The notes: generated by a model from the sequence alone, not told the origin. Shown: positions 1,633 through 20,500, numbered from the stretch's first letter. The stretch: DNA of 48,876 nt from Collinsella sp. An7 (GCF_002159335.1 NZ_NFHP01000009.1:1-48876), one strand, 5' to 3'. Numbers and translations: made by a program.

Positions 1633-1676
1633 GGGGTACTCCTTATCGCTGACAGAACAGGCAAACCGATGAGACG

Positions 1677-2252: not shown

Positions 2253-2287
2253 TTTTGGTACCTCCCTTTTGTGTACGCTCGCTAACG

Positions 2288-2471: not shown

Positions 2472-2547
2472 CAAGCGCGCGCGGGTGCGGGTCGTTCACG
2501 GGATAATCATGAGGAGGCCTGCGGATTGCAGCGGTGCGGACGATACC

Positions 2548-2598
2548 GGTCGGGCGAACGTGAGAAAAACGCACCCGTCCCCCTTTTCTCACCGACCG
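2548..2598. repeat. two-part inverted repeat between divergent operons
   Basis: An inner perfect 9-bp repeat, GTGAGAAAA / TTTTCTCAC, lies within an outer CGGTCGG / CCGACCG pair. It sits in the 240-bp gap between infC and the oxaloacetate decarboxylase operon. It could be an operator or an RNA hairpin at the start of either transcript. A possible -10 (TAGAAT, 2647-2652) for the rightward operon lies downstream without a clear -35. Confidence 0.4.
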
Positions 2599-2712
2599 CT
2601 CCCCGAAGTTTTGCCGCCGCCCGTCCGGTCGGCTCAAACCGCCCCTTAGAATACGAACTTGTGCGCGCTCAACCACCCTTCGCGTCGCAGCGCGCCGGAA
2701 AGGAGGGCCGCT

Positions 2713-3087
2713 ATGGGCCTTCGCTCTATGATTCGGAGTCTCTTGGGACGTTCCGGCGGTAGCCGCCGAGCGCGCCGACAGGGCCGCACCTTGGTCTCGG
2801 CGCCAGCAGCGCCACGTGTGGCCGAGATTGCGCCGGGCTATCCCGCCTCGGATTGGGAGGAGCTTCCCGCCTACCTCCCGGTCGACCCCGTCGAGCATCG
2901 GCATGCCGTCATCATCGCAACGGCCATCGCCGCGGCGGACCGCCCCGAGAGCTCCTTCTCGGTCAAGCGCGTATCCATCGCGAACCCCGAGTACCGCCGC
3001 GTGGCGTGCATCGCCACGGCGCTTGGAGCGGGAGCGCTCCCAGAGAGCTCCTTTGTGGTCAAGCACATCTATCGTGAGAAAGCTTAG
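2713..3087 (+). CDS. OadG/MmdE-like small protein with internal repeat
   Basis: This 124-residue protein opens the decarboxylase operon. The ATG follows GGAGGGCCGCT; an upstream in-frame start has no such site. The N-terminus is basic (MGLRSMIRSLLGRSGG) and no membrane segment is evident. The C-terminal half holds two related units: AVIIATAIAAADRPESSFSV and VACIATALGAGALPESSFVV. Each resembles the short hydrophobic 'ataiaa...ssF.Vk' motif at the end of OadG/MmdD/MmdE subunits of sodium-pumping decarboxylases, where it helps assemble the complex. Position, 10 bases before the biotin carrier gene, supports a structural role in that complex. The motif match is by eye and function is inferred; a plain 'hypothetical protein' label would also be defensible. 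Confidence 0.65.
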   Translation: MGLRSMIRSLLGRSGGSRRARRQGRTLVSAPAAPRVAEIAPGYPASDWEELPAYLPVDPVEHRHAVIIATAIAAADRPESSFSVKRVSIANPEYRRVACIATALGAGALPESSFVVKHIYREKA

Positions 3088-3097
3088 GAGGAACCCC

Positions 3098-3517
3098 ATG
3101 CTGCGCAAGTTCAAGATCTCGATCGACGGCACGTCCTACCTCGTGGAGATGGAGGAGATCGGCGCCCCCGCGGCGACCCCTGCCGATGCCGTGGCGCCCG
3201 CTGCTCCCGCTCCCGCGGCTGCCCCCGCTCCCGCGGCACCCGCTCCGGCACCCGCCGCCGCGCCCGCCCCTGTGGCCCCGGCTCCCGCGCCCGCACCGGC
3301 CGGCGCGCACGTGCAGACCGCGCCCATGCCCGGCAAGATCGTCGACATCAAGGTCAACGTGGGCGACCCCGTTAAGGTCAACCAGCCCGTCCTCATCCTC
3401 GAGGCCATGAAGATGGAGTCCGAGATCGTGGCGGAGCAGGACGGCGTCATCGCCTCCATCAACGTCGCTAAGGGCGACATGGTAAACCCGGGCGACGCGC
3501 TCTTCTCGCTCTCGTAG
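3098..3517 (+). CDS. biotin carboxyl carrier subunit of the Na+-translocating decarboxylase
   Basis: The 139-residue protein has three parts: a short N-terminal segment (MLRKFKISIDGTSYLVEMEE), a flexible Ala/Pro linker (about residues 23-68), and a biotinyl domain. The domain has the EAMKM site with Lys105 as biotin acceptor, 34 residues from the end as usual. It would carry CO2 as carboxybiotin from the carboxyltransferase to the membrane beta subunit. GAGGAACCCC precedes the ATG. In Klebsiella-type OadA this domain is fused to the carboxyltransferase, whereas here it is a separate gene, as in methylmalonyl-CoA and glutaconyl-CoA decarboxylases. The pyruvate/oxaloacetate-type partner downstream argues for oxaloacetate as substrate. 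Confidence 0.93.
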   Translation: MLRKFKISIDGTSYLVEMEEIGAPAATPADAVAPAAPAPAAAPAPAAPAPAPAAAPAPVAPAPAPAPAGAHVQTAPMPGKIVDIKVNVGDPVKVNQPVLILEAMKMESEIVAEQDGVIASINVAKGDMVNPGDALFSLS

Positions 3518-3629
3518 CCGAGCACCGGCGTGCCGACCGCCCCTAAGGCGCCCAGCCACCGCACCTGCGCACTCCCCTCGACCGCCCGACGGACGCCTCC
3601 GCCGGCGGCGCGACAGAAAGGTTTCCACC

Positions 3630-4745
3630 GTGGAGATATTAATAGAAGGCGTCGTGGCCCTCGTTGCAGAGCCCGGACGCATCGCCATGATGCTCATCGG
3701 CGCGGTGCTCATGTACCTCGGCATCAAGAAGCAGTACGAGCCCACGCTCCTCGTGCCCATGGGTCTTGGCACCATCCTCGTGAACATCCCCGGCTCCGGC
3801 GTGCTCGCCACCGGCGGCCAGCCCGGACCCTTCCAGATCCTCTTTGACGCCGGCATCGAGACGGAGCTCTTCCCGCTTCTGCTCTTTATCGGCATCGGGG
3901 CGATGATCGACTTCGGTCCGCTCCTCTCTAACCCGTTCTTGCTGCTCTTTGGCGCCGCCGCGCAGTTTGGTATCTTCTTTGTGATCATCGTGGCGAGCCT
4001 GCTCGGCTTTGACATCAACGACGCCGCCTCGGCCGGCATCATCGCCGCAGCCGACGGCCCGACCTCGATCTTTGTGGCCAACTCGCTCGGGTCGAAGTAC
4101 ATGGGCGCCATCATGGTCGCCGCCTACTCCTACATGGCACTCGTGCCCATCATCCAGCCCATCGCCGTCAAGGCCGTGACCACCAAGCGCGAGCGCCGCA
4201 TCCGCATGACCTACAACCCGCGGGCGGTCTCCAAGACGGCCAAGATTCTCTTCCCCGTGATCATCTGCATCATCGCCGGCCTCATCGCGCCCGACTCGCT
4301 GCCGCTCGTGGGCTTCCTCATGTTCGGCAACCTGCTGCGCGAGTGCGGCGTGCTCGAGAGCCTCTCGCTCACCGCACAGAACGAGCTCGTGAATCTCATC
4401 TCGATCCTTCTGGGCCTCTGCGTCTCGGTAAAGATGGAGTACCACGACTTCCTGCAGGTCGACACGCTCATCATCATGGCGCTCGGCCTCCTCGGCTTTG
4501 TGATGGACTCCGTGGGCGGCGTGCTCTTTGCCAAGTTCCTCAACCTCTTCCGCAAGGAGAAGATCAACCCCATGATCGGTGCGGCGGGCATCTCGGCCTT
4601 CCCCATGAGCTCACGCGTGATCCAGAAGCTCGCCACCGAGGAGGACCCGCAGAACTTCATCCTCATGCAGGCGGCGGGCGCCAACGTGGCCGGGCAGATC
4701 GCCTCGGTGGTGGCCGGCGGCCTCGTGCTCGGCCTCCTGCTCTAG
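3630..4745 (+). CDS. oadB: Na+-translocating decarboxylase beta subunit
   Basis: A very hydrophobic 371-residue protein of the OadB/MmdB/GcdB family with about nine or more membrane segments. It decarboxylates carboxybiotin and uses the energy to export Na+. Family landmarks include GIGAMIDFGPLLSNP, the reentrant segment around DGPTSIFVANSLG with its essential Asp, NLLRECGVLESLS, and GISAFPMSSRVIQ near the end. The start is GTG, after GAAAGGTTTCCACC; translation from it reads directly into family sequence. It lies 112 bases after the biotin carrier gene and 15 before the tiny membrane subunit. The exact substrate cannot be read from this subunit and is set by the carboxyltransferase encoded downstream. 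Confidence 0.95.
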   Translation: MEILIEGVVALVAEPGRIAMMLIGAVLMYLGIKKQYEPTLLVPMGLGTILVNIPGSGVLATGGQPGPFQILFDAGIETELFPLLLFIGIGAMIDFGPLLSNPFLLLFGAAAQFGIFFVIIVASLLGFDINDAASAGIIAAADGPTSIFVANSLGSKYMGAIMVAAYSYMALVPIIQPIAVKAVTTKRERRIRMTYNPRAVSKTAKILFPVIICIIAGLIAPDSLPLVGFLMFGNLLRECGVLESLSLTAQNELVNLISILLGLCVSVKMEYHDFLQVDTLIIMALGLLGFVMDSVGGVLFAKFLNLFRKEKINPMIGAAGISAFPMSSRVIQKLATEEDPQNFILMQAAGANVAGQIASVVAGGLVLGLLL

Positions 4746-4760
4746 AAGGGAGCGACGCTC

Positions 4761-4901
4761 ATGCCTTTTGACCTCGCAAACCTCGAGATTGCCGTCCAGA
4801 TCCTCGGACTCGGCTGGGGCGGCATCTTTATCGTGATGTTCATCATCTACCTCGTCTCGCTCGCGCTCGGGCGCATCTTCCCGCCGAGCGAGGACGAATA
4901 G
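4761..4901 (+). CDS. 46-residue OadG-like membrane subunit
   Basis: A short gene between oadB and oadA, reading MPFDLANLEIAVQILGLGWG, then a hydrophobic segment (GGIFIVMFIIYLVSLALG), then a charged end FPPSEDE. AAGGGAGCGACGCTC before the ATG supplies a ribosome-binding site. One transmembrane helix and a position inside the decarboxylase operon fit the gamma/delta (OadG) subunit, which anchors the carboxyltransferase to the beta subunit. It is about half the usual OadG length and lacks the long Ala/Pro linker and C-terminal assembly motif. That motif seems to reside in the protein encoded first in this operon. Confidence 0.8.
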   Translation: MPFDLANLEIAVQILGLGWGGIFIVMFIIYLVSLALGRIFPPSEDE

Positions 4902-4928
4902 GTTAGACCCGAGAGGGGTGAGACCCGT

Positions 4929-6323
4929 ATGACCCGCAAGATCCACTTTATGGAGACCATCCTGCGCGATGGCCAGCAGAGCCAGATTGCCACGCGCATG
5001 CCTATCGAGGACATGCTGCCGGTGCTCGAGGACCTCGACGCCGCCGGCTACCATGCGCTCGAGGTGTGGGGCGGCGCCACCTTTGACGCCTGCCTGCGCT
5101 ACCTTAACGAGGACCCGTGGGAGCGGCTGCGCACCATCCGCGCGCATGTGAAGCACACCAAGCTCCAGATGCTGCTCCGCGGCCAGAACCTCTTGGGGTA
5201 CCACAACTACCCCGACGACGTGGTGGCCGCCTTCGTCAAGAAGTCGGTTGAGAACGGCATTGACGTGCTGCGCATCTTTGACGCGCTCAACGACACCCGC
5301 AACCTCACCACCTCGATCCGCGCGGCCAAGGAGGCCGGCGGCGAGGTGCAGGCTGCCATCTCGTACACCACGAGTGACGTGCACACCGTGCGCTACTTTG
5401 TCTCGCTCGCCGTGGAGATGGAGCGCGCCGGGGCCGACTCGATCTGCATCAAGGACATGGCGGGCGTCCTCACGCCCGATGTGGCTACCGAGCTCGTGGG
5501 CGAGATCAAGGCCGCCTGCAGCCTGCCGCTCCAGGTGCACACGCACGGCACGGCGGGCATCGCCCAGATGACCTACCTCAAGGCCGTCGAGGCCGGCGCT
5601 GACATCATCGACACCTGCCTCTCCCCCTTTGCCGAGGGCACCTCGCAGCCGGCCACGGAGTCGATGGCAATCGCGCTCGAGGCGCTCGGCTACGAGACCG
5701 GGCTCGATATCGACCGGCTGGAACGCGTGGCCGAGCACTTCGTGCCCGTGCGCGACCGCTTCCTCGCCGAGGGCGTCCTAAACCCCAAGGTGCTGTCCGT
5801 GGAGCCCAAGGCGCTCCTCTACAAGGTACCGGGCGGCATGCTCTCCAACCTCATCAACCAGCTGCACGATCTTGGGCTCGACGACAAGTACGACGAGGTG
5901 CTCGCCGAGGTGCCGCGCGTGCGCGCCGAGCTTGGCTACCCGCCGCTCGTGACGCCGCTCTCGCAGATGGTGGGCACGCAGGCCCTCATGAACGTGGTGA
6001 CGGGTGAGCGCTACAAGGTGGTCTCGAACGAGATCCGCGACTACGTGCGCGGCATGTACGGCCGCCCGCCGGTAAAGATCAGCCGCGCGATCCGCGAGCA
6101 GATCATCGGCGAGGAGGAGCCCATCACCTGCCGCCCGGCCGACCTCATCCTGCCCGAGCTGGGAACCCTGCGGAAAGAGATTTCCTGCTATGCGCGCTCT
6201 GAGGAGGATGTGCTCAGCTACGCGCTCTTTCCCGAGCAGGCGCGCGACTTCCTCGGCCGGCGCGAGGACCCGTTCTACGACGTACCTGTGCAGGAGGTCA
6301 CCGTCTCGGTGGACGTGGCGTAG
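4929..6323 (+). CDS. oadA: oxaloacetate decarboxylase carboxyltransferase subunit (alpha, biotin domain separate)
   Basis: The 464-residue protein belongs to the pyruvate-carboxylase C-terminal / OadA / transcarboxylase 5S family, which moves a carboxyl group between oxaloacetate and biotin. Visible landmarks are METILRDGQQSQIATRM (residues 8-24, with metal and substrate ligands), GGATFD near 50, the CIKDMAG lysine near 174, and VHTHGTAG near 203. The last has the metal-binding histidines. The C-terminal half has the conserved PGGMLSNL and GTQALMNV segments. It ends without a biotin domain, which is supplied by the separate carrier gene. GAGAGGGGTGAGACCCGT precedes the ATG. Methylmalonyl-CoA decarboxylases use an unrelated alpha subunit, so oxaloacetate is the probable substrate. 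Confidence 0.92.
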   Translation: MTRKIHFMETILRDGQQSQIATRMPIEDMLPVLEDLDAAGYHALEVWGGATFDACLRYLNEDPWERLRTIRAHVKHTKLQMLLRGQNLLGYHNYPDDVVAAFVKKSVENGIDVLRIFDALNDTRNLTTSIRAAKEAGGEVQAAISYTTSDVHTVRYFVSLAVEMERAGADSICIKDMAGVLTPDVATELVGEIKAACSLPLQVHTHGTAGIAQMTYLKAVEAGADIIDTCLSPFAEGTSQPATESMAIALEALGYETGLDIDRLERVAEHFVPVRDRFLAEGVLNPKVLSVEPKALLYKVPGGMLSNLINQLHDLGLDDKYDEVLAEVPRVRAELGYPPLVTPLSQMVGTQALMNVVTGERYKVVSNEIRDYVRGMYGRPPVKISRAIREQIIGEEEPITCRPADLILPELGTLRKEISCYARSEEDVLSYALFPEQARDFLGRREDPFYDVPVQEVTVSVDVA

Positions 6324-6354
6324 CGGGCGCCCGCTGGACCTTTTACCGGCAGTT

Positions 6355-6420
6355 CTTACGCAACAGAGTGCGGCAACGGCGGGACCACGTCTCCGCTGTT
6401 GCCGCACTTTGTTGCGTAAG
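6355..6420. terminator. long inverted repeat between convergent oadA and dnaE
   Basis: Arms of 29 bases pair with only one or two flaws: the left begins CTTACGCAACAGAGTGCGGC and the right ends GTTGCGTAAG. The apex is 8 bases. It sits in the middle of the 187-bp gap where the two operons meet, so it probably ends transcription from both sides. No strong U-tract is present. The stem is unusually long for a terminator and could be a mobile hairpin element. Confidence 0.65.
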
Positions 6421-6510
6421 GACCTGTTTGAGCCGCCTTAGGCGATCATCTGCGGCAGCCGTGCAAAACGAGGCGCGCGGACCGCCGCAGGCAAGCCCGC
6501 GCACCCTTCG

Positions 6511-9500
6511 CTATACCACCGTCACGCGGCCGGCGTTGCCCACGATGGCCTTGGCCTCCGCAATGAGCGGGATGGAGCGGGCGTTCACGCGGGCGGGAAT
6601 CTCGGCACGCATGGTCTGGCCGTCGCGTTGCTCGATAAAGAGCTCCACCCGGTCGCCGCCGGGGTTGGTGGCAAAGAGCGCCGCGAGGCGCGACATGTTG
6701 CCCTGGCTAAAGCGCGCGCTCGGCACCATCACCTCAAAGACCTTGGGCTTGTTGGCCTCGTCGTTGAGCTCGAGCGGCAGCACCTCCTGCGCGATGATCT
6801 GATCGCCGCGGTCGCTTCGCTCAAGCTTGCCGCGCACGCGGATGAACGCGTCGGAGAGCACGGCGCCCGTCTCGGGGTCGGTCTCGCCGTAAAGGAAGCT
6901 CTCGCACTCCTTGTAGACCTTGGGGAACATGACGATGGTCGCCTCGCCCTCCATGTCCTCCAGGCGCACGATCGCCATGGGATCGCCCTTCTTGGTGACG
7001 CGCTTGCCCACCTCGGACACCATGCCGGCAAACCAGTAGGGCTTGCCCTCGGCGATGGGCTTGTTGATGGTGCCGCCGCCGGGCGCCGCGACTTCCACAC
7101 CGGTCTCGATCTGGGCGAGCGTGTACTCGCGGGCCTTGCCGAGCGCGTACTCGTAAGGGCGCAGCGGGTGGTCGGAGACGTAGATGCCGAGCACCTCGCG
7201 CTCGGCCGAGAGCTTGACGTAGCGGTCCCACTCCTGGCCATCGGGCTCGGGTACGCTGACCTCAAAGCCGGAGCCCTCCACATCGCCAAAGAGGTCAAAG
7301 AACGAGACCTGGCCGCTTGCGCGGTCCTTCTGGCGGCGTGCCGCAGCGTCGACGATGTTCTCGGGGTTGGCCTTGTCTACAAAGCTCATGAGCTGGCGGC
7401 GCGGGTAGCCCGACGAGTCGAAGGCGCCTGCCTTGATGAGCGCCTCGATTACGCGGCGGTTGGCCTGGCTCGAGTCCACGCGGTCGACGAAGTCGTGCAG
7501 GTTCTTGTAGGGGCCGCCCTGCTCGCGCTCGCGGATGATGGCCTCGGCCACGCCCTCGCCCACGCCGCGGATGCCCGCGAGACCAAAGCGGATGCCCTCG
7601 GGCACGGCCGTGAACTCGGTACCCGACTCGTTGACGTCTGGCGGGAGCACGGCGATGCCGTCGTGGCGGCAGGCCGAGATGTAGTGCACGATCTTATCGG
7701 TCTTGCCCGTATAGGAGGTGAGCACGGCCGCCATGTACTCGTTGGGGTAATGGGCCTTGAGCCAGGCGGTCTGCATAACGAGGATGGCGTAGCCGGCGGA
7801 GTGCGACTTGTTGAACGCGTAGGACGCGAACTCGAGCACGTCGTCCCAGATGCGCTGGGCGGTCTCGCGCTTGTAGTCGTTGCGCTCGGCGCCGTTCATC
7901 CAGTGGTCGTAGATGGTCTCCTCGCGGCCGTCCTCCCAGCTGAACACCTGCTCGGTGAGCATCTTGATCTTCTTTTTGGCCACGGGCTTGCGGATACGGC
8001 TGTCCGACTCGCCCTTGGAGAAGCCGCACATCTCGACCGAGATGTTCATAACCTGCTCCTGGTAGACCATGGTGCCGTAGGTCTCGCCGAGGATGTCGTC
8101 GAGGCGCGGGTCGTACGAGACGGCGGGCTCCTTGCCGTTCATACGGTTGATGTAGCTCGTGACCATGCCGGCGCCCAGCGGGCCGGGGCGGTAGAGGGCG
8201 ATAAGAGCGACCACGTGCTTGTACTCGGTGGGCTTCATGTTCTTGATCGTGGCCGTCATGCCGGCGGACTCGATCTGAAAGACGCCCGCGGTGTGGCCGG
8301 TCTGCATGAGCTTGAAGATCGCCGGGTCGTCAAAGGGGATGGCGTCGACGTCGATGTCGATGCCGGTGCTCGCCTTGATGTTGGCTTTGGCCTTGGAGAT
8401 GACGGTGAGCGTGCGCAGGCCCAGGAAGTCCATCTTGAGCAGGCCCATGTCGGCCACCGTGTGGCCTTCGTACTGGGTGATCTCGACGCCGCCCTTGGTG
8501 TCGAGCTTGGTGGGCACGTGCTCGTTGACCGGGTCGCGGCAGATGAGGACGGCGCAGGCGTGCACGCCCTCGCCACGCGTGAGGCCCTCGATGGAGAGCG
8601 CCGCGTCGATGATGCGACGGGAGTCGTCGTCGGTCCGGTAGGCGTCGGCAAAGTCGGGGTTGAAGTTCTCCTCGTGCCCCTCCTGGCGCTCGAGTACCTG
8701 GCGGAGCTTGACCTTGGGGTCGCTCGAGATCATCTTGGAGAGCCGCTGGCCCACGTAAACCGGGTAGTCGAGCACGCGCGCCGCATCGTTGATGGCCTGC
8801 TTAGCCTTGATGGTAGAGTAGGTGATGACGTGCGTGACCTTCTCGGAACCGTAGAGCTGACGGACGTGCTCGATTACCTCGAGCCGCCGCTCATCATCGA
8901 AGTCCATATCGATATCAGGCATCTCGGTACGCTCGGGCGAGAGGAATCGCTCGAACATGAGGCCGTTCTCGAGCGGGTCGAAGGTGGTGATGTCCATGGC
9001 GTAGGCCACGATGGCGCCTGCGGCCGAGCCACGGCCCGGGCCGACGCCGATGCCGTGCTGCTTGGCCCAGCGCACGTACTCGGCCACGATGAGGAAGTAC
9101 GCGGCAAAACCCTTGTCGCAGATGACCTTATACTCAAACTCAAAGCGCTCCTTGACGGAGACGCCTCCCACCTCTTTGGTCTCCCAGTCGGGCCCGTAGC
9201 GCTTGGCCAGACCCTCCTCGCACTCGCGGCGGAACTGGCTCTCGTGCGTCTCGCCGGGATCGAGCAGCGGGTAGCGCGGGAGGATGATCTTGCCCCACTC
9301 GAGCTGCACGTTGCACTTTTCGGCAATCTCGAGCGTGTTGTCGCAGGCCTCGGGACAGTAGGGAAAGAGCGCGCGCATCTCGTCCTCGGACTTCATGTAG
9401 AACTCCGAGCCCGTCATGCGGATGCGGTTGGGGTCGTCGACCTTGGAGTTGGTGCCGATGCACATCATGATGTCCTGCACCGGGGCGTCATCGCGCGTGA

Positions 9501-10299
9501 GGTAGTGGAAGTCGTTGGTGGCGATGACCTTGACGCCGATCTGACGGGCGATCTCGATGAGCTTGCGGTCGAGCTCCTCGTCGGTGAGGCCGCTGTCGGT
9601 GGTAAGGCCGTGCTCCTGGATCTCGATGTAGAAGTCGCCCGGGGCAAAGGTGTCGCGAAAGGTCTCGGCCCACCTGAGGGCGCCCTCCATGTCGCCGTGG
9701 TCGATGCAGCGCGGAATGATGCCCGACAGGCACGCCGAGCAGCAGATGAGGCCCTCGGCATGCTTTTGGAGGCTCGGGAGGGTGACGCGCGGCTTGTAGT
9801 AGAAACCGTTGACGGCCGCGTCGGAGACGACCTTCATGAGGTTGATGTAGCCGGTTTCGTTCTTGGCCAGAAGGATGAGGTGGTAGAGCTCGGGCTTGCG
9901 GTCGCGCGCAAGGGTCTCGTCGGGTGTGAAGTAGACCTCGCAGCCAAAAATGGGCTTGATAACCGGAGCGGGCTTGACGGCGTCGAGCGAGCCGCACTCG
10001 TCCCATGCCGCGCGGTCGCGCTCCCACTGGGCGCGGGCGCGCTCGTCCGACGGGGCCTCGCCGAAGTCGCCCTCGGCAAAGGTTGTGCGGTCGTGCTTCC
10101 ACTGCTTGAAGTCGGGCGCGCCGTTGTTGACGGCGTCGCACGCGAGACCGAGCTCGGGGATGCCGTACATGTAGCCGTGATCGGTAAGGGCAACGGCCGG
10201 CATGCCGAGCTCGACCGCGCGCTTGACCATGTCGTCTACGCGGGTGGCACCGTCGAGCATGGAGTATTCGGAGTGGTTGTGCAGGTGAACAAAGGCCAC
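6511..10299 (-). CDS. dnaE: DNA polymerase III alpha subunit
   Basis: The 1262-residue replicative polymerase has four readable parts. They are an N-terminal PHP domain (HLHNHSEYSMLDGA at 5-18, LTDHGYMYG), the GVGPGRGSAAG motif near 417, the catalytic PDIDMDFDDE near 459, and helix-hairpin-helix and OB-fold regions toward the end (YWFAGMVSEVGKR near 1080). The start is GTG, with AGGAG seven bases upstream, and the HLHNHSEYS motif follows directly. The protein is about 100 residues longer than E. coli DnaE. Part of the excess is a charged insert at about residues 66-115 in the PHP domain (KQWKHDRTTFAEGD through DECGSLDAV). The gene is alone on its strand between repeats. A possible -10 (TAGAAT on the minus strand, 10354-10359) precedes it without a clear -35. 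Confidence 0.97.
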   Translation of the reverse strand: MAFVHLHNHSEYSMLDGATRVDDMVKRAVELGMPAVALTDHGYMYGIPELGLACDAVNNGAPDFKQWKHDRTTFAEGDFGEAPSDERARAQWERDRAAWDECGSLDAVKPAPVIKPIFGCEVYFTPDETLARDRKPELYHLILLAKNETGYINLMKVVSDAAVNGFYYKPRVTLPSLQKHAEGLICCSACLSGIIPRCIDHGDMEGALRWAETFRDTFAPGDFYIEIQEHGLTTDSGLTDEELDRKLIEIARQIGVKVIATNDFHYLTRDDAPVQDIMMCIGTNSKVDDPNRIRMTGSEFYMKSEDEMRALFPYCPEACDNTLEIAEKCNVQLEWGKIILPRYPLLDPGETHESQFRRECEEGLAKRYGPDWETKEVGGVSVKERFEFEYKVICDKGFAAYFLIVAEYVRWAKQHGIGVGPGRGSAAGAIVAYAMDITTFDPLENGLMFERFLSPERTEMPDIDMDFDDERRLEVIEHVRQLYGSEKVTHVITYSTIKAKQAINDAARVLDYPVYVGQRLSKMISSDPKVKLRQVLERQEGHEENFNPDFADAYRTDDDSRRIIDAALSIEGLTRGEGVHACAVLICRDPVNEHVPTKLDTKGGVEITQYEGHTVADMGLLKMDFLGLRTLTVISKAKANIKASTGIDIDVDAIPFDDPAIFKLMQTGHTAGVFQIESAGMTATIKNMKPTEYKHVVALIALYRPGPLGAGMVTSYINRMNGKEPAVSYDPRLDDILGETYGTMVYQEQVMNISVEMCGFSKGESDSRIRKPVAKKKIKMLTEQVFSWEDGREETIYDHWMNGAERNDYKRETAQRIWDDVLEFASYAFNKSHSAGYAILVMQTAWLKAHYPNEYMAAVLTSYTGKTDKIVHYISACRHDGIAVLPPDVNESGTEFTAVPEGIRFGLAGIRGVGEGVAEAIIREREQGGPYKNLHDFVDRVDSSQANRRVIEALIKAGAFDSSGYPRRQLMSFVDKANPENIVDAAARRQKDRASGQVSFFDLFGDVEGSGFEVSVPEPDGQEWDRYVKLSAEREVLGIYVSDHPLRPYEYALGKAREYTLAQIETGVEVAAPGGGTINKPIAEGKPYWFAGMVSEVGKRVTKKGDPMAIVRLEDMEGEATIVMFPKVYKECESFLYGETDPETGAVLSDAFIRVRGKLERSDRGDQIIAQEVLPLELNDEANKPKVFEVMVPSARFSQGNMSRLAALFATNPGGDRVELFIEQRDGQTMRAEIPARVNARSIPLIAEAKAIVGNAGRVTVV

Positions 10300-10451: not shown

Positions 10452-10632
10452 CGGCCTGCCTGGCCCCAGCTTCGGACAGTCCTGGGCTCGCTCGGAGGCG
10501 TCACCGGTGCCTCCGGTTCGTGCGGAACTCGCTGGGACCAGGCGGGCCGATCCCGACCTCGTCGGCTGCTGTTGCCTACGGCTGCAGCAACTCGAGCAGG
10601 ACGGGACTTCGCGCTGGGAGGGAAGGATGTTG
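10452..10632 (+). repeat. structured intergenic repeat, copy A
   Basis: Three parts are visible. An outer stem of 19 bp (10452-10470 with 10531-10549) has one mismatch and one G-U. The conserved inside carries TTCGGACAGTCCT, a hairpin GGAGGC...GCCTCC, and TGCGGAACTCGC. A tail ends AAGGATGTTG. The same parts in the same order occur at 11582-11734 (opposite strand) and 13498-13670. No open frame explains it. It lies upstream of dnaE and downstream of the DUF3284 gene. Confidence 0.8.
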
Positions 10633-10894
10633 GACGGGTGCCGGTGATGTGCGGGGCACTTGGTTCTAGCGGGCTTGGCGGCCCTGTCGCCTCGCCGGGC
10701 TTTGCCCGGCTTGGCGCTCTCGCGCTGCGGCTTCGCGCAGGAAGAGGGGTTGCTAAAAATGCCCGCAACATACGGATAGCCGGCCTATGCAGATGCCGAG
10801 AGGGTTCGACCACGGGCGCCACCGTTTGGGAATGTCAGCTGCGCTGCTCGAGAGTGATATTCACAAACTTGCATATTTACGCGTATATATTCAG
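10633..10894. other. hairpin-rich spacer without genes
   Basis: Small hairpins occur in a row, for example GCCGGGC-TTT-GCCCGGC near 10697 and CTGCG-GCTT-CGCGCAG near 10724. They are followed by an AT-rich patch at about 10850-10895. No coding frame with a ribosome-binding site was found. Confidence 0.5.
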
Positions 10895-10932
10895 ACAAAG
10901 AGGCCGGGGAGCACCACTTGCCCCCGGCCTCT
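10895..10932 (-). terminator. terminator after the DUF3284 gene
   Basis: On the minus strand AGAGGCCGGGG pairs with CCCCGGCCTCT across a 12-base loop, followed by TTTGTCT. It lies about 30 bases past the stop codon of the upstream gene. Confidence 0.85.
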
Positions 10933-10960
10933 GTTGCAACAGCCATGTTTGGCCAAAGGG

Positions 10961-11452
10961 CTAGTCCTCTTCGCTCTCCAGCTGCTCCAGGAGCGGGTTT
11001 TGGCCATGGTGGTTCTGGCGATCTTTCTTGGCTTGGCGAACGATGGCCTTGAGCGTCTGGTCGGCGCGGCGCTCGGCGCGCTTCTCGTAGCGGCGCAGGC
11101 GGAAGTTGGCAAAGAGCCCGCGCTCGGGCGCGGGGTTCACGAACTTCTCGCGGTACGTGAGCGTAAGACCGTCCTCGCCACGCGGTTCTACCTGATAGCG
11201 AATGGTATTGCTGCCGGAATCGTAGGCAAAGTGCACCTCATAGACCTCCGGGTAGCGATACTTGCGAATCTTGACGTTCATGGTGACGTTGGACTTGCGG
11301 ACCTGCGAGGAGCGCTTCTGGTACTTGAGCCCGGCGAGCTTATTGCGGCTCACGCGCTTGCCCGTCGCGCGCTGCACGTCATCAATGATGGAACGCTCAA
11401 TCTGGTCGAAGAACTCCTCCGGCGTGACATCCAGCTCCCGCGTGAACTCCAT
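10961..11452 (-). CDS. DUF3284 domain protein
   Basis: A soluble 163-residue protein with no signal peptide or membrane segment. It opens MEFTRELDVTPEEFFDQIER and follows the pattern of the DUF3284 family: a START-like fold with alternating strands, conserved GLKYQKR and RYQVEPRGEDG segments. It ends in a charged, Arg/Lys- and Glu-rich tail. DUF3284 proteins are often found near PTS or beta-glucoside genes in Firmicutes, but no reaction is established. GAGGAGTTTCGAGC precedes the ATG. The gene stands alone, flanked by its own terminator and by repeat copies A and B. Family assignment is by resemblance. Confidence 0.8.
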   Translation of the reverse strand: MEFTRELDVTPEEFFDQIERSIIDDVQRATGKRVSRNKLAGLKYQKRSSQVRKSNVTMNVKIRKYRYPEVYEVHFAYDSGSNTIRYQVEPRGEDGLTLTYREKFVNPAPERGLFANFRLRRYEKRAERRADQTLKAIVRQAKKDRQNHHGQNPLLEQLESEED

Positions 11453-11581
11453 GCTCGAAACTCCTCAAATTCCGCCGCCCACCCGGACGGTCCCCATGCA
11501 CACGGCCTCTATTCTACCCAGAGAGCACCCCACCAACCGCCGCCCTACACCCGAGGCATCCTCACAGCAGCGGCATCCGAG

Positions 11582-11734
11582 CAACATCCTTACCCTCTCG
11601 CAGCCCTAACCCGCTCGTGCAGGGCTGGAGCCGGCGAGGTCCGCCGCGAGTTCCACAGCGAACGGGAGGCGCCAGTGGCGCCTCCCGCCGAGCGAGGACT
11701 GTCCGAAGCGCCGGACCTCGCCGGCTCCAGCCCT
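11582..11734 (-). repeat. structured intergenic repeat, copy B
   Basis: Inverted orientation relative to copies A and C. The outer stem is a perfect 23 bp (11621-11643 with 11712-11734). The inner hairpin GGGAGGCGCC-AGT-GGCGCCTCCC is perfect over 10 bp. Read on the minus strand it carries CTTCGGACAGTCCT before the hairpin, GTGGAACTCGC after it, and a tail ending AAGGATGTTG. The outer-stem sequence is unlike those of A and C, yet fully paired. Confidence 0.85.
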
Positions 11735-11749
11735 CGCAAGTACCGGTTA

Positions 11750-13354
11750 CTACTCCTCGCGGGGACGCGCGAGGTCCTCGAGCTCAACGCCCGGATAGCG
11801 CTTCTTGAAGTTCTCGTTGAACATGTCGGCGAGCTTCTGAGCGGCCTTGTCGTATTCCTCCGGGTCGTCCCAAGTCTGGCGCGGGTCGAGCAGCGTGGTG
11901 GGAACGCCCAGGCACTCGCGCGGCACATCGACACCGAAGATCTCGTCGCGGCGGTAGCCGGCGTCGTCGATCGAGCCGTCCATCGCGGCGCGCACGAGGG
12001 CGCGGGTGTGCGAGAGGGCGATGCGGTGGCCGATGCCGTAGGGGCCGCCCGTCCAGCCGGTGTTGACGAGGTAGACGCGGGTGTTGTGGCGCACAATCTT
12101 CTCGCCTAGCAGGTATGCGTAGACCATGTGGTCGAGTGGCATGAATGGCTCGCCAAAGAGCGCCGAGAACGTGGGCTGCGGCTCCACGATGCCGATCTCG
12201 GTCCCGGCGACCTTGGCGGTGTAGCCGGTGAGGAAGTGGAACATGGCCTCCTCGCGCGAGAGCTTGGAAATGGGCGGCAGCACGCCGTAGGCATCGGCGG
12301 TGAGGAAGAGCACCACGCTCGGGCTTTGGCCCACGCCGGACTCCACGACGCGGTCGATATGCTCGATGGGGTAGGCCGCGCGGCCGTTCTCGGTAATGGA
12401 GCTGTCGGAGTAGATGGGCTCGCGGGTCTTGCGGTTGAGCTTAACGTTCTCGGACACGCTGCCGAAGCGGATGGCATCGAAGATGTCGGGCTCGCGCTCG
12501 TGGGTCAAATCGATCGTCTTGGCGTAGCAGCCGCCCTCGATGTTGAAGATGCCGCGCGGGCTCCAGCCGTGTTCGTCGTCGCCGATGAGCAGGCGCTCCG
12601 GGTCGGCCGAGAGGGTCGTCTTGCCCGTGCCGGACAGACCGAAGAGCACCGCAGTCTTGCCCGTCTTGGGGTCGACGTTGGCCGAGCAGTGCATCGGCAG
12701 CACGCCGTCCTCGATGGGCAGGAGGTAGTTCATCATCGTGAAGATGGCCTTCTTGATCTCTCCGCAGTATCCGGTGCCGGCCACGACGATCTTCTTGTGG
12801 TTCATGTCGAGGATGACAGCCGCGGGCTCAACGCCGTCGCGATCGCGCGAGCAGACGTAGGTGGGAGCCGCGTAGACGGTGATGTCGGGGCGGCCGAACT
12901 GCTCGAGCTCGTCGACCGTCGGGCGGACGAGCATCTGGCGGATGAAGAGCGCCTGATGCGCGCGCTCGGCCACGACCATGACCTTGCGGGCGTACTTGCG
13001 GTCGGCGCCGGCGTAGCCGCGCACGATGAAGAGGTGGCGGCGCTGCGACATGTAGCGCGCGACGTTCTTGCGGACAACTCGGTAGGTGGCCTCGTCGATG
13101 GGCTTGTTCTGCTTGCTCGCCCAGTTGACGTTCTTATCGGCCTCACCGGCGTCGACGATATAGCGGTTCTCGGGCGAGCGGCCGGTGAAGGCGCCCGTCG
13201 AGACCGAGAGCGACCCGGTGGAGGTCAGGTACGCCTCGTGGTGGGAGATGGCATGCTCGATGAGCTTTGCAGGGCACCAATCGACGTGCACGCGGTCCTG
13301 ATCGACCTCGATACCGAGATTGATCAGGATAGATTCGATCATGGGCTCGGTCAT
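11750..13354 (-). CDS. pckA: phosphoenolpyruvate carboxykinase (ATP)
   Basis: The enzyme interconverts oxaloacetate plus ATP with PEP, CO2 and ADP. In fermenting anaerobes it often runs toward oxaloacetate to gain ATP. The 534-residue product has the usual length, with FTGRSPENRY near 60, the PEPCK P-loop GLSGTGKTTLS near 235, and the downstream metal/nucleotide segment LIGDDEHGW. It ends with a normal C-terminus (NTGWTGGPYGIGHRI and beyond). The ATG at the MTEPMIES start has AAGGAG five bases upstream; the longer open frame upstream runs through repeat copy C and is not coding. It shares the C4 node with the oxaloacetate decarboxylase encoded 5 kb away. Confidence 0.97.
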   Translation of the reverse strand: MTEPMIESILINLGIEVDQDRVHVDWCPAKLIEHAISHHEAYLTSTGSLSVSTGAFTGRSPENRYIVDAGEADKNVNWASKQNKPIDEATYRVVRKNVARYMSQRRHLFIVRGYAGADRKYARKVMVVAERAHQALFIRQMLVRPTVDELEQFGRPDITVYAAPTYVCSRDRDGVEPAAVILDMNHKKIVVAGTGYCGEIKKAIFTMMNYLLPIEDGVLPMHCSANVDPKTGKTAVLFGLSGTGKTTLSADPERLLIGDDEHGWSPRGIFNIEGGCYAKTIDLTHEREPDIFDAIRFGSVSENVKLNRKTREPIYSDSSITENGRAAYPIEHIDRVVESGVGQSPSVVLFLTADAYGVLPPISKLSREEAMFHFLTGYTAKVAGTEIGIVEPQPTFSALFGEPFMPLDHMVYAYLLGEKIVRHNTRVYLVNTGWTGGPYGIGHRIALSHTRALVRAAMDGSIDDAGYRRDEIFGVDVPRECLGVPTTLLDPRQTWDDPEEYDKAAQKLADMFNENFKKRYPGVELEDLARPREE

Positions 13355-13497
13355 ACATACTCCTTGGGATAGAGGGCCTATACGCACCATCTTTTTCAGT
13401 ATGACCGATGGGTTTGGGCGATAGTCCCCGCTCGGGGAAAGGTTCGGCGAACGGTAGCTCGCAAAGCCGACGCTGGGTGGTTGCCGCACACGGGTGC

Positions 13498-13670
13498 GCG
13501 GGCCGGGCGGGGCCGAGGTCCCGGCTTCGGACAGTCCTGGCTCGCACGGAGGCGCCACTGGCGCCTCCGGCTCGTGCGGAACTCGCCGGGACCTCGGCCC
13601 CGCCCGGCCCGCCCCCAGCTGCAGCAACACCCCGAACGCGGCGGGTTGACTCGCAGGGGGCAAGATGTTG
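13498..13670 (+). repeat. structured intergenic repeat, copy C
   Basis: The best-formed copy. The outer stem is 28 bp and perfect (13498-13525 with 13585-13612). The inner hairpin CGGAGGCGCC-ACT-GGCGCCTCCG is perfect over 10 bp. Between them lie CTTCGGACAGTCCT and TGCGGAACTCGC, as in copy A. The tail ends AAGATGTTG. It lies about 140 bases upstream of pckA, in the 585-bp gap before addA. Confidence 0.85.
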
Positions 13671-13939: not shown

Positions 13940-16900
13940 TTAGAGATGATAAGTAACCGTCTCGGGCTCGGCGGGGTCTGCTGGATCGGGGATCTCCACG
14001 CGGACGAACGTGAGGGTCACGTGGTCGTAGCCGGCATCGTGGAGAACGCGGGCGTAGACCTCCGCCTGGAGACGGTGCTTCTCTTGCAAGGCATCGGGCG
14101 TCTCGGCGGGGGAACCTCCCGTCTTGTAGTCGAGCACGAGGGCCTCACCGGGGCGGGCGGGGTCGGTGGCGAGAAGATCGATGGCGCCCTCCACGTAGGG
14201 GCCGAAGGCGTCGCGATAGGCGGGGTCCCCGGGGACGAAGAACGGCACCTCGGCGCGGAGCTCGGGCCAGGTCAGCACCTCGGCGCGAACGCGCGAGCGC
14301 TCCCAACGGGCAAGGGCCGTCTCGAGGCGCTCGCATTGGGCCGGGGTGACGCCCCACTGCCGGCACTGTGCGTCCACGCGCGCCGCGGGCACGGCGTCGG
14401 CGCCCGTCTCTACGAGCCACTGCGCCAGCGCATGGAAGGCGGAGCCGAGCGCCGTGGGGTCGCCCGCGCCCTCCCCTCCCGGCGTAGGCCGGTCTGCGCG
14501 CGCAGGCGCATCGCGCACCACGGCCTCCTCCCCCGCCGCGCCCTCGGCGTCGGCCGCGCGGACGGAGGCGTCGGCGCGGTCCTCCACCTCAGCATGAAGC
14601 GCCGCGGCAAGCGAAGTGTAGCTATACGAGTCGCGCTCCGGCCGGACGGGGGCGGCAACGTTCGCCTCCACGGGCGCGGGCCACACAAGCGGCACATCGC
14701 GCTCGGCGGCCTCTTCCTCCGGCCCGTCGGCCGCGGCATCGGCAGAGAGGGCGAGAGGATAGTCCTCCGCGGCAAAATGCACCTGCGGCCCCTTGGCCCC
14801 GCGCGAGGGGTAATAGGGAAAATCGAGGTCATCGAGGAGCACGAGCTGGTAGTCGCCCGCGTGCGCCCCCTCAAAGTCGAGCCGGTCGCACCCTAGGTCG
14901 GGCGCGCCGGAAAGCTCCGGATCTTCCGGCAGGATACGCCCCATGACCTCGCCCACGAGCGAGGTCGCATGCCCGGGCATGAGCTCCCCCGCGCTCCGCG
15001 CACCCATCACGAGGATCGCCACCTCGCGCGCACGGGTGAGCGCCACGTAGAGCTTGCGCGCCGCCTCCTCGTAGTCGAGGGTGGCGTTTTTGGTGCGCAT
15101 ATAGGCAAAGGCCTCCGTTGCCGAGGCGGGCACGCGGTCGAGCTCGAGCACCTCCTCGTCGAGCTCGGGGACATCGCCGAGCAGCTCCTTGTCAGACGCC
15201 GGGTCAAAGCGGTTGGGCCGCGCCGCCCAGAGCGTCTCTCCGTCCTCGTCGAGCATCTGGATGCGGTCGCGGCTGGCCGCGATACCGTCGCACTCCGTGA
15301 CAGCGACCACGGGAAACTCGAGGCCCTTGGAGGCGTGGATCGTCATGATGCGCACCGCGTCGCCATCCGCGCCCGAGAGCATCGCCGGCGACTCCTTGGC
15401 ATGCGCCACGTGGTCGGCAAAGCCGCGCGCCACGAGCCGCGGCGCAAGCGCGCAGCCCTCCTCGACCTCCTTCACGATCGCGAGCGCCCGGAGCACGTTG
15501 GCCGCAACGGCATGCTCCTGCGCGCCACCCCGCTCGAGCCGCCAGAGCCAGCCCGACTCGTTGACGGCGTCGCGCGCGATGACCGACATCGGCTCGCGGC
15601 CCACGCGCGCGAGCGCCCGGCTGAGCACCTCGCGCGCGCGGGCGAGCAGCGGAAGCTCGCCAAACTCCTCCATAATCTCGCCCGTAAGCAGCACATCGGC
15701 CGTAACGCTCCGGCTGTCGACCACCCCCGCCTCGGCATCCACATGCGTGGCGAGCGCCAAGAGCTCCGTCGCCCCCAGGGCAAACATCGGCGAGGAGAGC
15801 AGCGGGGTGATTCCCGTCTCGCCATCGTCGGGGTTAGCCAGAAAGTTGAGGAGCGCCCCCACCGTGCCCACCTCGGGCGCACGGCGAAAGACCGACGTGC
15901 CACCCGAGACAACGCAGGGCATCCCCGCGGCGCGCACGGCCTCGGCGTAGACGTCTGCGCGCGAGAGCGCCGCCATGATGATCACCATCTCGCCCGGGGT
16001 AAAGCCCTCCTCGTCGCGCAGGCGCCGGAAGCGCGCGGCGATAGCCTCGGCGCGGGTGCGGGCGCGCTCCTCGGAGGTCCCGCCCACCACGAGCACGGCC
16101 TGGCGCCGCGAGGTCTCGGTGCCGCGGAGCACGCGGGCATGGGCGCGCCGGTCCTCCCCGCACGAGACGAGGTGCAGAAAGTCGCGCCCGAGCCGGTTGG
16201 CGCTGCCGCCCTCAAAAATCCGGTCGGCAAACGAGAGGATGTCGGCGTGGCTGCGGAAGTTGGCGTCGAGGTCGCACACGGTGCCACCAAGCCGCTCGGT
16301 CTCATCCTTCTTGGTGCGAAAGACCGACACGTCGGCCCCGCGGAAGCGGTAGATTGACTGCTGCGCGTCGCCCACCGTGCAGAGCTCGCGCCCGTCGGGG
16401 CTGCAGAGCAGGCGCACGAGCTCCACCTGCTGCTGAGCCGTGTCCTGGAACTCGTCCACCATGACCATGCGGAAGCGCCCGGCAAACTCCCGGCGGACCT
16501 CCTCGTGGTTTTTGAGCGCGTCGTAGGCGAGCGTGAGGAGGTCGTCGTTGTCGAGCACCGCACGCTCGCTCTTGAGCGCCGTGTACTCGGTCTCGACCTC
16601 GGAGGTGAGGGCCATGAGCTCGTTGAGCGCGGCGTCGCGGGCGGCGAGGTAGGCGTCGGCAAAGAATCGGTCGCGTGCCGCGCGCACCTCGCGCACGGCC
16701 GTCTTCTCGTCCTTGCCCATGCCGCGACCCGTGAGCGAGAGCTTGCCGCACGCCGCAAAGCAGACGCGCAGTGCCGCCACGTCGTGCGCCGAGGCCTGCC
16801 AGGCGCCGAGCGCCTCCACGGCCGTGCGCGCCGCCTCGTTGTTGGCGTAGGAGGGCGCCTCCGCTATCTCGCGGTAGGCCTCGATGAGCTCGCGGTAGGC

Positions 16901-17533
16901 GGGCTCTGCCGGCACCCGGTGGAAGGCGGCGAGCCCCTCGGTGGAGGCGGAGGCACGTGCGAGAAGCGCCACCACGATCTTGAGGAGACTGTCGAGGTCG
17001 TGCGAGCCGGCTGCGGGGCTCTCGAGGTTAAAGGTACCAAGGAGCTCGTCATAGGCACCCGACCCCTGCGCGTCCTCGGCGCTCACGCGGCGGAGCACGT
17101 GCTCGGCCGCGCGGCGCTTAAGATCGTCGGCGTATTCCGCCACCGAGAAGCCCGGGTCCACGCCCAAATCGAGCGCGTGGGCACGGATGATGCGGGCGCA
17201 CATGCCGTGGATCGTGGAGATCCAGGCGCCGTCGACCCGCTCAGCCTCGGCCTCCATCCCCTCGGCGATGAGCCCCGCGCGGATGCGCTCCTTGAGCTCC
17301 GCGGCGGCCTTCTCGGTAAAGGTGATGGCGAGCACCTGGTCGATTCCGTCGAGGAAGGGCTCGGGTACCGCCGGATCTGCCCATTCGTCGCGCGGCTTGG
17401 AGCCGGGACGGAGCGCGTAGAGCACCCGCTGGGTGAGCGTGAAGGTCTTGCCCGAGCCGGCTCCCGCAGAAACGAAGAGCGGTCCCTCGAGCGTGCGGAC
17501 GATGCGCTCCTGCTTTTTCTCCAACTGCGGCAT
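13940..17533 (-). CDS. addA: ATP-dependent helicase/nuclease subunit A (AddA, UvrD/RecB type)
   Basis: AddA is the motor and one nuclease of the AddAB complex, which resects double-strand breaks for RecA. The 1197-residue protein shows the SF1A motifs in order: Walker A GAGSGKT (24-30), STIHGMC near 105, Walker B DEFQDT near 360, GDAQQSIYRFRG near 390, IHASKGLEFP near 735 and VALTRARE near 830. The C-terminal PD-(D/E)XK nuclease has GSAFHALAQW near 1035 and LVLDYKTGG near 1135. The start is the ATG one base after the addB stop codon, with GAGGCG upstream, so translation is probably coupled. The longer upstream frame only reads through addB. A low-complexity, acidic Ala/Glu-rich linker precedes the nuclease. 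Confidence 0.93.
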   Translation of the reverse strand: MPQLEKKQERIVRTLEGPLFVSAGAGSGKTFTLTQRVLYALRPGSKPRDEWADPAVPEPFLDGIDQVLAITFTEKAAAELKERIRAGLIAEGMEAEAERVDGAWISTIHGMCARIIRAHALDLGVDPGFSVAEYADDLKRRAAEHVLRRVSAEDAQGSGAYDELLGTFNLESPAAGSHDLDSLLKIVVALLARASASTEGLAAFHRVPAEPAYRELIEAYREIAEAPSYANNEAARTAVEALGAWQASAHDVAALRVCFAACGKLSLTGRGMGKDEKTAVREVRAARDRFFADAYLAARDAALNELMALTSEVETEYTALKSERAVLDNDDLLTLAYDALKNHEEVRREFAGRFRMVMVDEFQDTAQQQVELVRLLCSPDGRELCTVGDAQQSIYRFRGADVSVFRTKKDETERLGGTVCDLDANFRSHADILSFADRIFEGGSANRLGRDFLHLVSCGEDRRAHARVLRGTETSRRQAVLVVGGTSEERARTRAEAIAARFRRLRDEEGFTPGEMVIIMAALSRADVYAEAVRAAGMPCVVSGGTSVFRRAPEVGTVGALLNFLANPDDGETGITPLLSSPMFALGATELLALATHVDAEAGVVDSRSVTADVLLTGEIMEEFGELPLLARAREVLSRALARVGREPMSVIARDAVNESGWLWRLERGGAQEHAVAANVLRALAIVKEVEEGCALAPRLVARGFADHVAHAKESPAMLSGADGDAVRIMTIHASKGLEFPVVAVTECDGIAASRDRIQMLDEDGETLWAARPNRFDPASDKELLGDVPELDEEVLELDRVPASATEAFAYMRTKNATLDYEEAARKLYVALTRAREVAILVMGARSAGELMPGHATSLVGEVMGRILPEDPELSGAPDLGCDRLDFEGAHAGDYQLVLLDDLDFPYYPSRGAKGPQVHFAAEDYPLALSADAAADGPEEEAAERDVPLVWPAPVEANVAAPVRPERDSYSYTSLAAALHAEVEDRADASVRAADAEGAAGEEAVVRDAPARADRPTPGGEGAGDPTALGSAFHALAQWLVETGADAVPAARVDAQCRQWGVTPAQCERLETALARWERSRVRAEVLTWPELRAEVPFFVPGDPAYRDAFGPYVEGAIDLLATDPARPGEALVLDYKTGGSPAETPDALQEKHRLQAEVYARVLHDAGYDHVTLTFVRVEIPDPADPAEPETVTYHL

Positions 17534-17534
17534 T

Positions 17535-20500
17535 TCAGCGCCTCCTCGCGCACATCGTGAGCGGGCAGTGCCCGCAGGAATCTTGAGCCGGTGACGGTGC
17601 CACACGGCCGGCCTCGAGCGCGTCGAGCTCGACGGCAATCGCTCGCTCGACCTGCTCCAAAAGCTCGCCAAACTCGAGCTCGCCATCGTGCTTGGCGGCG
17701 CTCCGCCCGCGCGCGGGCTTGACGCCGGGGTAGCCCGAGACCTTATCGCGCGGGAAGGCCGGCGGCTCGCTCTCCACAAGCGCCGCGGCAACAGCGCCTT
17801 TAACGACGGGACCGCGCGTGCCGAAGTAGACCGCGCCCTGCGGCGAGCCGCCCGTGAGCCGCGCGTAGGCCGTGGCGTAGATGAGCGTCTGCACCTTGGG
17901 TGCGCGGTCGGCCTCGCGCCCGGGGAGCCAGACCGGGCTGAGCTGCTCGTCCTCGTCGAGCGCCATGGTGGGGTCGGGGCAGGCAAACTCCCCGAGCGAG
18001 GCACGGTTTTTGTAGTCGATGATCACAAAGCGCTCGCCTGCACCCGCCGCGGGCGCCGTGTCGATGCGGTCAATCCGGCCGCCGAGCGGACGGCCCGCAT
18101 AGGAGACGCCCTCCTTGTCGAAGGCGTACTCCAAAAGCGCCGGCGAGAAAATGCTGAGCATATCGCTCTCGTGGCGCACGACCTCACGGAGCTTGGGGCG
18201 CATGGCCTCGATCTGGTTGCGCTCGAGCTCGTCGGTGGCCACAAGCGGGCCCTTGATGGTCTGTGGCTTGCCGCCGGTGGCCTTGCTGTAGCGCCCATGC
18301 GTGTGCTTGCCGCGGGCGTGGTCGTCGCGCGTCTCGTCAAAGGCAATTTCGAGCTCGGCAAGACACGCGTCGAGGTTGGCAGGGGTCACGCGCGCAAGGC
18401 CCGCCTCGATGAGCCGCTCATGGAAGCGCTGCATAACATCGTGGACGAAGTTGCCCATCTCGATGGGGCCAAAGCCCGCGTCGAGCCGGCGGGTCGAGAC
18501 GCGGTTGGTGACGAGCCACCGGTAGGGGCAGGCGAGATAGCTCTCGATCTGGGAGGCCGAGAGCGTGCGCGGGCGTGGCTCGCCACCCACGACGCGCGTG
18601 GGCAGGAGGAGGAAGGGGTTGAGCTCGGGCGCAAGGGCGTGCTCGGCGGGACGGGGCGCACGGTCGACGCAGGCACCGCGGCCACCCGCCGGGTCGAGGT
18701 TGGCAAAGAGCGCTCCCTCCGTGGGGAGCGGTTCTGCGTGCGCGGCAGGCGTACGCGCGGGGAGCGCCGCCTCGCGGGCGCGAAGCTCGGTGAGGGCGAG
18801 CGCGGGATAGAGCTCCTCGCCATGGGCATCGTGCGCGACGTAAGCGAGTGCCGCAGACGTGCGCGCGGTCCCGAGCGCACAGCGAAACGCGCGGCGCTGA
18901 CGCGGGGCGGGGGCCATGGCATACGGGGCGGCACCGAGCTTCTCGGCAAGAAGGTCTGCCACCGTGGCACGGACCGAAAGCGGATAGGATGCGGCGTCGG
19001 CATCGGCCAGAAGGACCGCGTCGTAGCTCATCGGCGCCGCAGCGGCAAGGGTATCGATCGTGGTGAGGGTCACCTGGACGGGGCGGTCGCTCACGGCTTG
19101 CGGGGCAACGGTATACGCCGCGCGCACGCGCAGGGCGGGGAGCACGGTAAAGACCCGCTCCTCCCCCACGCCCCATGCGCGCGCCTCCTCAAAGAGCGAG
19201 AGCGCGGCATCGAGCGCGGCGAGCTCGGCCTGCTGTGCGGCCGCACCCGCGGAACCAAACGCACCGGCAGGCGCGCCGGCGGCAGCCTCGCGCATGAGGG
19301 CGAGCGCGCGGGCATAGGCACCGCGGCGGATGGCATCGAGCACGTCGCGCACCACGATGGGGCGCGGCTCGGTGGCGGGCAGGCCCTCGGCCTCGGCGGC
19401 AGCCGCACGGTCGTGAGCCCGCTGGCGCTCGCGGCTCTGGAGCCGATCAAGCTCAGCCCAGAGCGTATCGCGGGTGAGCTTGCGCGTCTTGCGGAGATGA
19501 CTGTCGAGCGTACGCGCCGCGCGGGAGGCGGCAGGGCCGAGTCCCGAGAAGGGCGAGCGCATCCAATCGGGCAGCTCGGGCGCGGGCCACCACGTACTCG
19601 GCTCCTCCGTCTCGAGGCGCTCGACAACGTCGGCGAGCATAAAGAAGGCCTCGCCGGCGCGCGTGCGCTCAAAAGCGAGAGATTCCTCCCCGGCTACGGC
19701 GATGCCGCGTGCCGCTAGGCGAGGCGCAAGGTCGCGGAGCGCCGCGAGCGGGCGCGGCACCGCGACGGCGATGGTCGCCGTCGCGCCCGACTCGGGGGAA
19801 TCCGCCTGCGCGACGACGTCCTGCCCGCCTGCCGCCACATTGGAGACAGCCTCGTGCGCCAACTCGTCGATGAGCTGGGTGTAGGCGGCGGCGCGCGCCG
19901 TCGGCCCCGCCACCTCGGCGATACGCGGGACGAGGGGCACCGAGGCGTGCGGTCCCTCCTCCGACGCGGCGTCATCGCACGCTGGCAGTGCGCACGACCT
20001 AACGGTAACGCCTTCCTCCAACAACACCGTGCGCAACTCACTTGCAAGTGCATCGGCCTCGGGCTCAGCGAGGATCGCGACCTCGCCCTCCCCCGCCACC
20101 GCGGTGAGCAGGCAGGATAGGTGGCGCGGATACTCGGCGATGCCCCGCACGGCGACCGCCCGGGCACATGCGGGCGCCCCCTCCGCTAGAAAACCGGTTG
20201 CAAGCAGGGTCGCCGCCGCCGACGGCTCGAGGTACCCCGCAGCATCGAGGCACTCACCATAGGCGGCAACGAGCTCGACCACCCGGCGCTCTGCGGCGGT
20301 CAGCTGGGCGCCAGACGCCTTGTCCTGAAGCGCGGGCAGCAGATCGCGCGCCGCCTGTGCGAGCATCTCGACCATACCGCGCGTCTCGCGGAGCTCCTCG
20401 CGCCCCGCATGGGGCGTCGGGGCCGAGTGCGCAGCAGCACCCGCCCTCCCGCGCTCCGCATGGGGCGCCATGTCCTCATCTTCGAAAGCCACGACAGAAG

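Follow-up and report, generated by a model that had tools for sequence, protein, structure and literature searches.

A short palindromic repeat occurs three times in the window, the whole 48,876-nt stretch of Collinsella sp. An7 that was analysed, and represents a real, order-wide and apparently undescribed family of the REP and Correia kind with reversed conservation, in which the centre is conserved and the arms are site-specific. Members of the family are short (~100–160 bp), non-coding and palindromic, with long inverted arms whose sequence is particular to each site. From comparisons between loci and strains, we consider it probable, at roughly two in three, that hairpin-templated copying, together with recombination, keeps the arms of this dispersed palindromic DNA repeat complementary, a reading that explains the data better than a cis-acting RNA does.

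Three copies of the element in the window

The sequence-only reading had proposed three copies sharing one order of blocks, and this order was borne out, with the block CTTCGGACAGTCCT found in each copy. The features are as follows.

10452–10551, plus strand: copy 1, intergenic, with arms at ~10452–10470 and ~10531–10550
10470–10483, plus strand: block CTTCGGACAGTCCT of copy 1
10494–10514, plus strand: inner hairpin of copy 1
10524–10532, plus strand: block GGAACTCGC of copy 1
6511–10299, minus strand: dnaE, on one side of copy 1
10961–11452, minus strand: DUF3284 gene, on the other side of copy 1
11621–11734, minus strand: copy 2, outer arms at 11708–11734 and 11621–11647; sense to pckA, with its edge ~15 nt past the pckA stop codon
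11695–11708, minus strand: block CTTCGGACAGTCCT of copy 2
11665–11685, minus strand: inner hairpin of copy 2
13498–13612, plus strand: copy 3, intergenic, outer arms at 13498–13525 and 13585–13612; antisense to pckA (upstream of the pckA start)
13525–13538, plus strand: block CTTCGGACAGTCCT of copy 3
13548–13568, plus strand: inner hairpin of copy 3
13578–13586, plus strand: block GGAACTCGC of copy 3
13940–18004: gene for a UvrD-type helicase/nuclease, to which copy 3 is also antisense

The paired element thus spans ~100–115 bp in the window. The extents first proposed (to 10632, from 11582 and to 13670) proved too long, taking in an extra 3' stretch that lies outside the conserved structure except for the GATGTTGC motif described below. 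The arms of copy 1 form ~18–19 pairs with one mismatch, those of copy 2 are 27 nt long and 96% complementary, and those of copy 3 are 28 nt long and 100% complementary; the fold z-scores of the three copies are −2.9, −7.1 and −8.5, respectively. Relative to the neighbouring genes, copies 1 and 3 lie antisense. The 2.37 Mb genome contains nine matches to the pattern GGACAGTCCTN{20,50}GGAAC, a count that exceeds chance, and none to its reversed control.

Several copies in the An7 genome are followed, ~60–100 nt on the 3' side, by an A-rich stretch and the motif (A)GATGTTGC(A), which lies at 10620–10640, 11580–11595 and 13655–13670 in the window and near position 1640 of another locus (L001), sometimes with GCAACA upstream. 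The enrichment of this motif is limited to the An7 genome.

Architecture and distribution of the family

Alignment of the window copies with those from elsewhere in the genome and from Collinsella ihumii, Collinsella sp. An307, Olsenella and Tractidigestivibacter left only an asymmetric internal loop conserved, in which CTTCGGACAGTCCT faces TGCGGAACTCGC. Across the family the stems measure 20–40 bp and the core ~60 bp. Sequence and length are variable in the outer arms and likewise in the inner hairpin; the latter, which had been taken for part of the conserved core, is therefore not conserved, and only the loop surrounding it is. Arms differ at every locus examined. Within one genome, the core and the proximal arms reach 98–99% identity between loci whose distal arms are unrelated, which points to dispersal or strong homogenisation. 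Because no pre-insertion empty site of unambiguous polarity was found among the orthologous sites, dispersal is read from the distribution of the copies. One intact copy (L005/L006, G000:C15:96930–97093) carries a degraded copy nested inside its 5' arm. At five Olsenella/Tractidigestivibacter loci (L025, L026, L027, L030 and L032), one copy occupies a constant position adjoining the conserved block gaaagacggttcctcggaactgcatgggtttcc, and pieces of that block reappear in inverted orientation downstream.

A covariance model that was trained on 16 copies detected 18 copies in the An7 genome (E < 1e-5). The lack of further copies, named in the sequence-only reading as grounds for abandoning a dispersed element, is thus not what we found, and the wider search with the model, which it had also proposed, extended the element with its conserved core and copy-specific paired arms far past the window. 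The family was present in 60 of the 65 sampled Coriobacteriaceae genomes, commonly with 10–34 copies each, and 140 of 296 genomes of the class had a match (E 1e-6), where single weak matches outside Coriobacteriales may be due to chance. Among 396 sampled Actinomycetota, 22 were positive at E 1e-7, all of them in Coriobacteriales. Judged by the genomes sampled in these searches, the family appears confined to Coriobacteriales, an order in which it occurs in three families. The same core was recovered from both of the remaining positive families, presumably Atopobiaceae and Eggerthellaceae, going by the Olsenella loci named above and by general taxonomy. Conservation of the core over three families implies a constraint beyond the DNA-repeat model, and it points to a recognising factor in common gut bacteria.

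Scanning against 4227 Rfam families at the gathering score gave no match for the element, whether in the window or at 20 loci from relatives, where tRNA genes were the only matches, and Rfam in E-value mode on the element region returned only chance matches elsewhere. A phage collection likewise yielded no match. The one match in a plasmid collection was a large C. aerofaciens replicon, and a pattern match in Natronococcus (L029) looks like a chance hit inside coding sequence. A typical element is also borne by positions 1–8000 of a contig labelled as a Bdellovibrio MAG (JAGIAF010000141.1, L033), probably a misbinned Coriobacteriales contig. Our full-text search of open-access literature found no description of this repeat.

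Origin of the paired changes in the arms

Covariation counts as the standard proof that an RNA is structured, and the sequence-only reading had argued that independent arms which stay paired are the mark of selection on structure. In 118 distinct copies, nearly every position of the outer arms shows all four Watson–Crick pairs. However, among the non-Watson–Crick cells of the same copies, with the conserved core-proximal positions set aside, G-U was not in excess over A-C, which argues against selection at the RNA level, since such selection would tolerate G-U.

We compared orthologous elements at 11 sites in up to 14 related Collinsella genomes of one species group. The flanking genes at these sites are 87–100% identical, yet most sites hold several alleles, and in most alleles the arms are perfectly matched. 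At one site (L158), the alleles GCCCGCCGCGTGAGGGGTGTGGGGG, GCCCGCCGGGTGCCGGGGCAGGGG and GCCCGGCGTGGGCGGGGAGCGGCGCGTAA each stand opposite their own complement; at another (L154), GGGACCGC, GGGACTGC, GGGGCTGC and GGGGCTGG occur in four different strains, each with a matching partner; the matched arm changes are successive across the four strains. Minimum spanning trees of the alleles, from which probable chimeras were left out, placed 42 columns altered on both sides between nearest alleles, with 8 allele steps involving at least two paired columns, against 47 one-sided substitutions, namely 15 G-U, 16 A-C and 16 other. The 1:1 ratio of G-U to A-C indicates that no filter for RNA pairing acts on one-sided mutations, and hence that the paired changes have another origin. 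Whole arm pairs were also swapped between strains at one site, and the outermost arm ends were kept at a site while the inner arms differed. Some of the matched swaps may be plain allele import or ectopic conversion, which would preserve pairing without hairpin copying.

Taken with the inversion of the core described below, these patterns leave selection on structure unsupported as the reason for the paired arms. Uncompensated drift of the arms, which had been named as a possible refutation, does occur in the form of single-sided changes and chimeras, yet it is regularly erased. The covariation of the family is, on these comparisons, mostly of DNA origin as we see it, and perfect pairing alone is hence no evidence of a working RNA. 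A textbook case of covariation that close orthologues appear to trace to DNA copying is a caution to anyone running RNA discovery pipelines, and the family offers a natural test of how compensatory changes come about.

Core inversion, chimeric arms and losses

At one of the 11 sites (L160), two strains (G006 and G011) share the same arms and the same core, yet their cores point in opposite directions; this is the only clean core inversion observed. In several strains the element at the rpsL site is chimeric, with its two arms taken from different alleles, as is that at the L155 site in G014. Within one arm allele, cores and inner hairpins vary. Losses include deletions and the fusion of a convergent pair (G010, L161), and some leave a single arm next to an intact flank. 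We considered whether two apparent empty sites (rpsL in G028 and L161 in G038) record insertion with inverted duplication of the flank; both were treated as deletions, since the loss at L160 in G038 had removed flanking sequence as well. In one genome (G048), a different long hairpin lacking the core lies upstream of pckA (L088, ~3220–3290), and two close relatives (G049 and G050) carry the element at that place.

Proposed mechanism of arm maintenance

The patterns above suggest that a hairpin would form when the DNA is single-stranded in replication or repair, after which one arm would serve as template for the other, through template switching or arm-to-arm gene conversion. Such copying would remove mismatches, export new mutations to both arms and occasionally flip the core, while ordinary recombination between copies and strains would give rise to swaps and chimeras. 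Template switching predicts several paired changes at once, stem extension and loop inversion (PMC8794818). The hairpins attributed to it by Monttinen and Loytynoja (2022, PMC8794818) resemble the present elements in their perfect stems, multi-base paired changes and inverted loops, but were found in rRNA and microRNA genes, whereas here a dispersed bacterial repeat shows them at many orthologous sites. The conserved core might, less securely, be the target of a trans-acting protein that disperses the element in a REP-like manner. The family itself is non-autonomous. Among the three natures initially suggested, namely a structured RNA, a single-stranded DNA hairpin recognised by an enzyme and a mobile element with copy-specific ends, the last two fit best. 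With ~10–34 copies per genome in many sequenced Collinsella, arm correction, core inversion and allele exchange are directly measurable.

A bolder version, which we hold only tentatively, is that this is a new kind of bacterial repeat, in which a dedicated protein of the host or the element recognises the core and drives the whole process, giving each site new, perfectly matched arms, flipping the core and exchanging it between sites. If this were true, stems would diversify fast and always remain complementary across a whole bacterial order.

Genomic context and the possibility of a cis-acting RNA

With a crude gene caller, 115 of 120 copies were intergenic and 5 overlapped genes; in an annotated 33 kb stretch of C. 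aerofaciens, all four copies lie between annotated genes. Single copies with a sense gene on their 5' side lie at a median of 26–32 nt past the stop codon, a spacing not seen for antisense copies. Pairs of copies less than 500 bp apart numbered 20, with ~1 expected by chance; 19 of them, including two from one duplicated locus, were convergent and none divergent. The sense spacing counts against the DNA-repeat model, because a repeat blind to strand would not predict it, and together with the convergent pairing it means that the element may have a strand-related role.

These two observations are why we retain, as an unlikely alternative, a cis-acting RNA of 3' untranslated regions, in which the transcript would form the hairpin, a protein would bind the internal loop and compensatory selection would keep the stem. 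The strong covariation, the conservation of the loop over three families and the place of copy 2 after the pckA stop codon agree with such an RNA. However, copies between co-directional genes show no strand preference, being antisense as commonly as sense (43 versus 36), and the strand relative to the gene is inconsistent, the core even being inverted between strains at L160. The near equality of G-U and A-C, both in the arms and among one-sided changes, and the lack of an Rfam match also speak against it.

The spacers of the convergent close pairs in G006, G042, G021, G032 and G000 are unrelated between loci. A duplicated convergent pair in G042 was considered as a moving unit and rejected, as it is part of a segmental duplication that covers 4 kb or more (L175/L177, C1 988600–992700 and 354000–358100, inverted, 98.7% identical). 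In another genome, two small genes, toxin-antitoxin-like by reading, lie between the elements of a convergent pair (L253, G025:C13).

Relation to known repeats and a candidate mobiliser

The ends of Correia elements are conserved inverted repeats, whereas the ends here are different at every site. In other respects, the Correia repeat enclosed elements of Neisseria (PMC2649163) are alike, being ~100–150 bp long and intergenic, with inverted repeats round a conserved core and without a transposase. REP, BIME and REPIN sequences are likewise short, dispersed, intergenic, non-coding, non-autonomous and present in many copies, frequently as inverted pairs, but REPs conserve the sequence of the stem, whereas the present repeats conserve the internal loop and have a stem particular to each site. 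Collinsella-1 (RF01700) shares the paired stems, the conserved internal loop and the Collinsella host, although the element matches neither it nor any other Rfam family at the gathering score. A survey of structured RNAs in the gut listed 250 palindromic candidates, some of them possibly REP sequences (PMC8040213); the present family may be among them.

The likeness to REPs raises the idea that a Y1 (RAYT-type) transposase recognising a single-stranded DNA hairpin mobilises the element in trans, which we think rather doubtful. Y1 transposases of this type are present in many genomes that carry the family, and the two co-occur above expectation (93 genomes with both, odds ratio 4.6); five of five zero-copy Coriobacteriaceae that were checked lack Y1, and the convergence of close pairs is shared with REP doublets. 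Nevertheless, the association is loose and confounded by phylogeny, and two complete or near-complete genomes with many copies (G021 and G127) have no Y1 match at all. Around ten Y1 genes, the covariance model found no element out to a distance of 1.5 kb, so that, as a further difference from REPs and REPINs, no cognate RAYT adjoins the element; doublet spacers are not common to loci, and no fixed foot sequence was identified. With this weak association, no linkage and several element-rich genomes without Y1, RAYT was rejected as the obvious mobiliser. One Y1 locus (L327, G058) bears a different palindromic repeat, GAGACAGTTGTGCC..., at 1009–1092 and 1954–2032, possibly the REP of that transposase itself.

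Insertion into existing palindromes and transcription termination

Improbable, in our judgement, is a model in which the element inserts in the loop of existing palindromes such as terminators, the outer arms being native and the inner part mobile. It would explain why proximal arms and core are common to loci while distal arms are not, why outermost arm ends are kept at a site where inner arms differ, and why one arm sometimes survives a loss next to an intact flank. Yet relatives have at the site of copy 2 an unrelated terminator hairpin and not the arms, the loss at L160 in G038 is a deletion that took flanking sequence with it, and separate canonical terminators, by reading, often persist further downstream of the copies. 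That the family consists of intrinsic terminators is very improbable and largely refuted: hairpins do lie close to gene 3' ends, and copy 2 occupies the place of the pckA terminator hairpin of relatives, but many copies are antisense or close to start codons, and a T tract follows the arm in only 2 of 99 copies, counting either strand.
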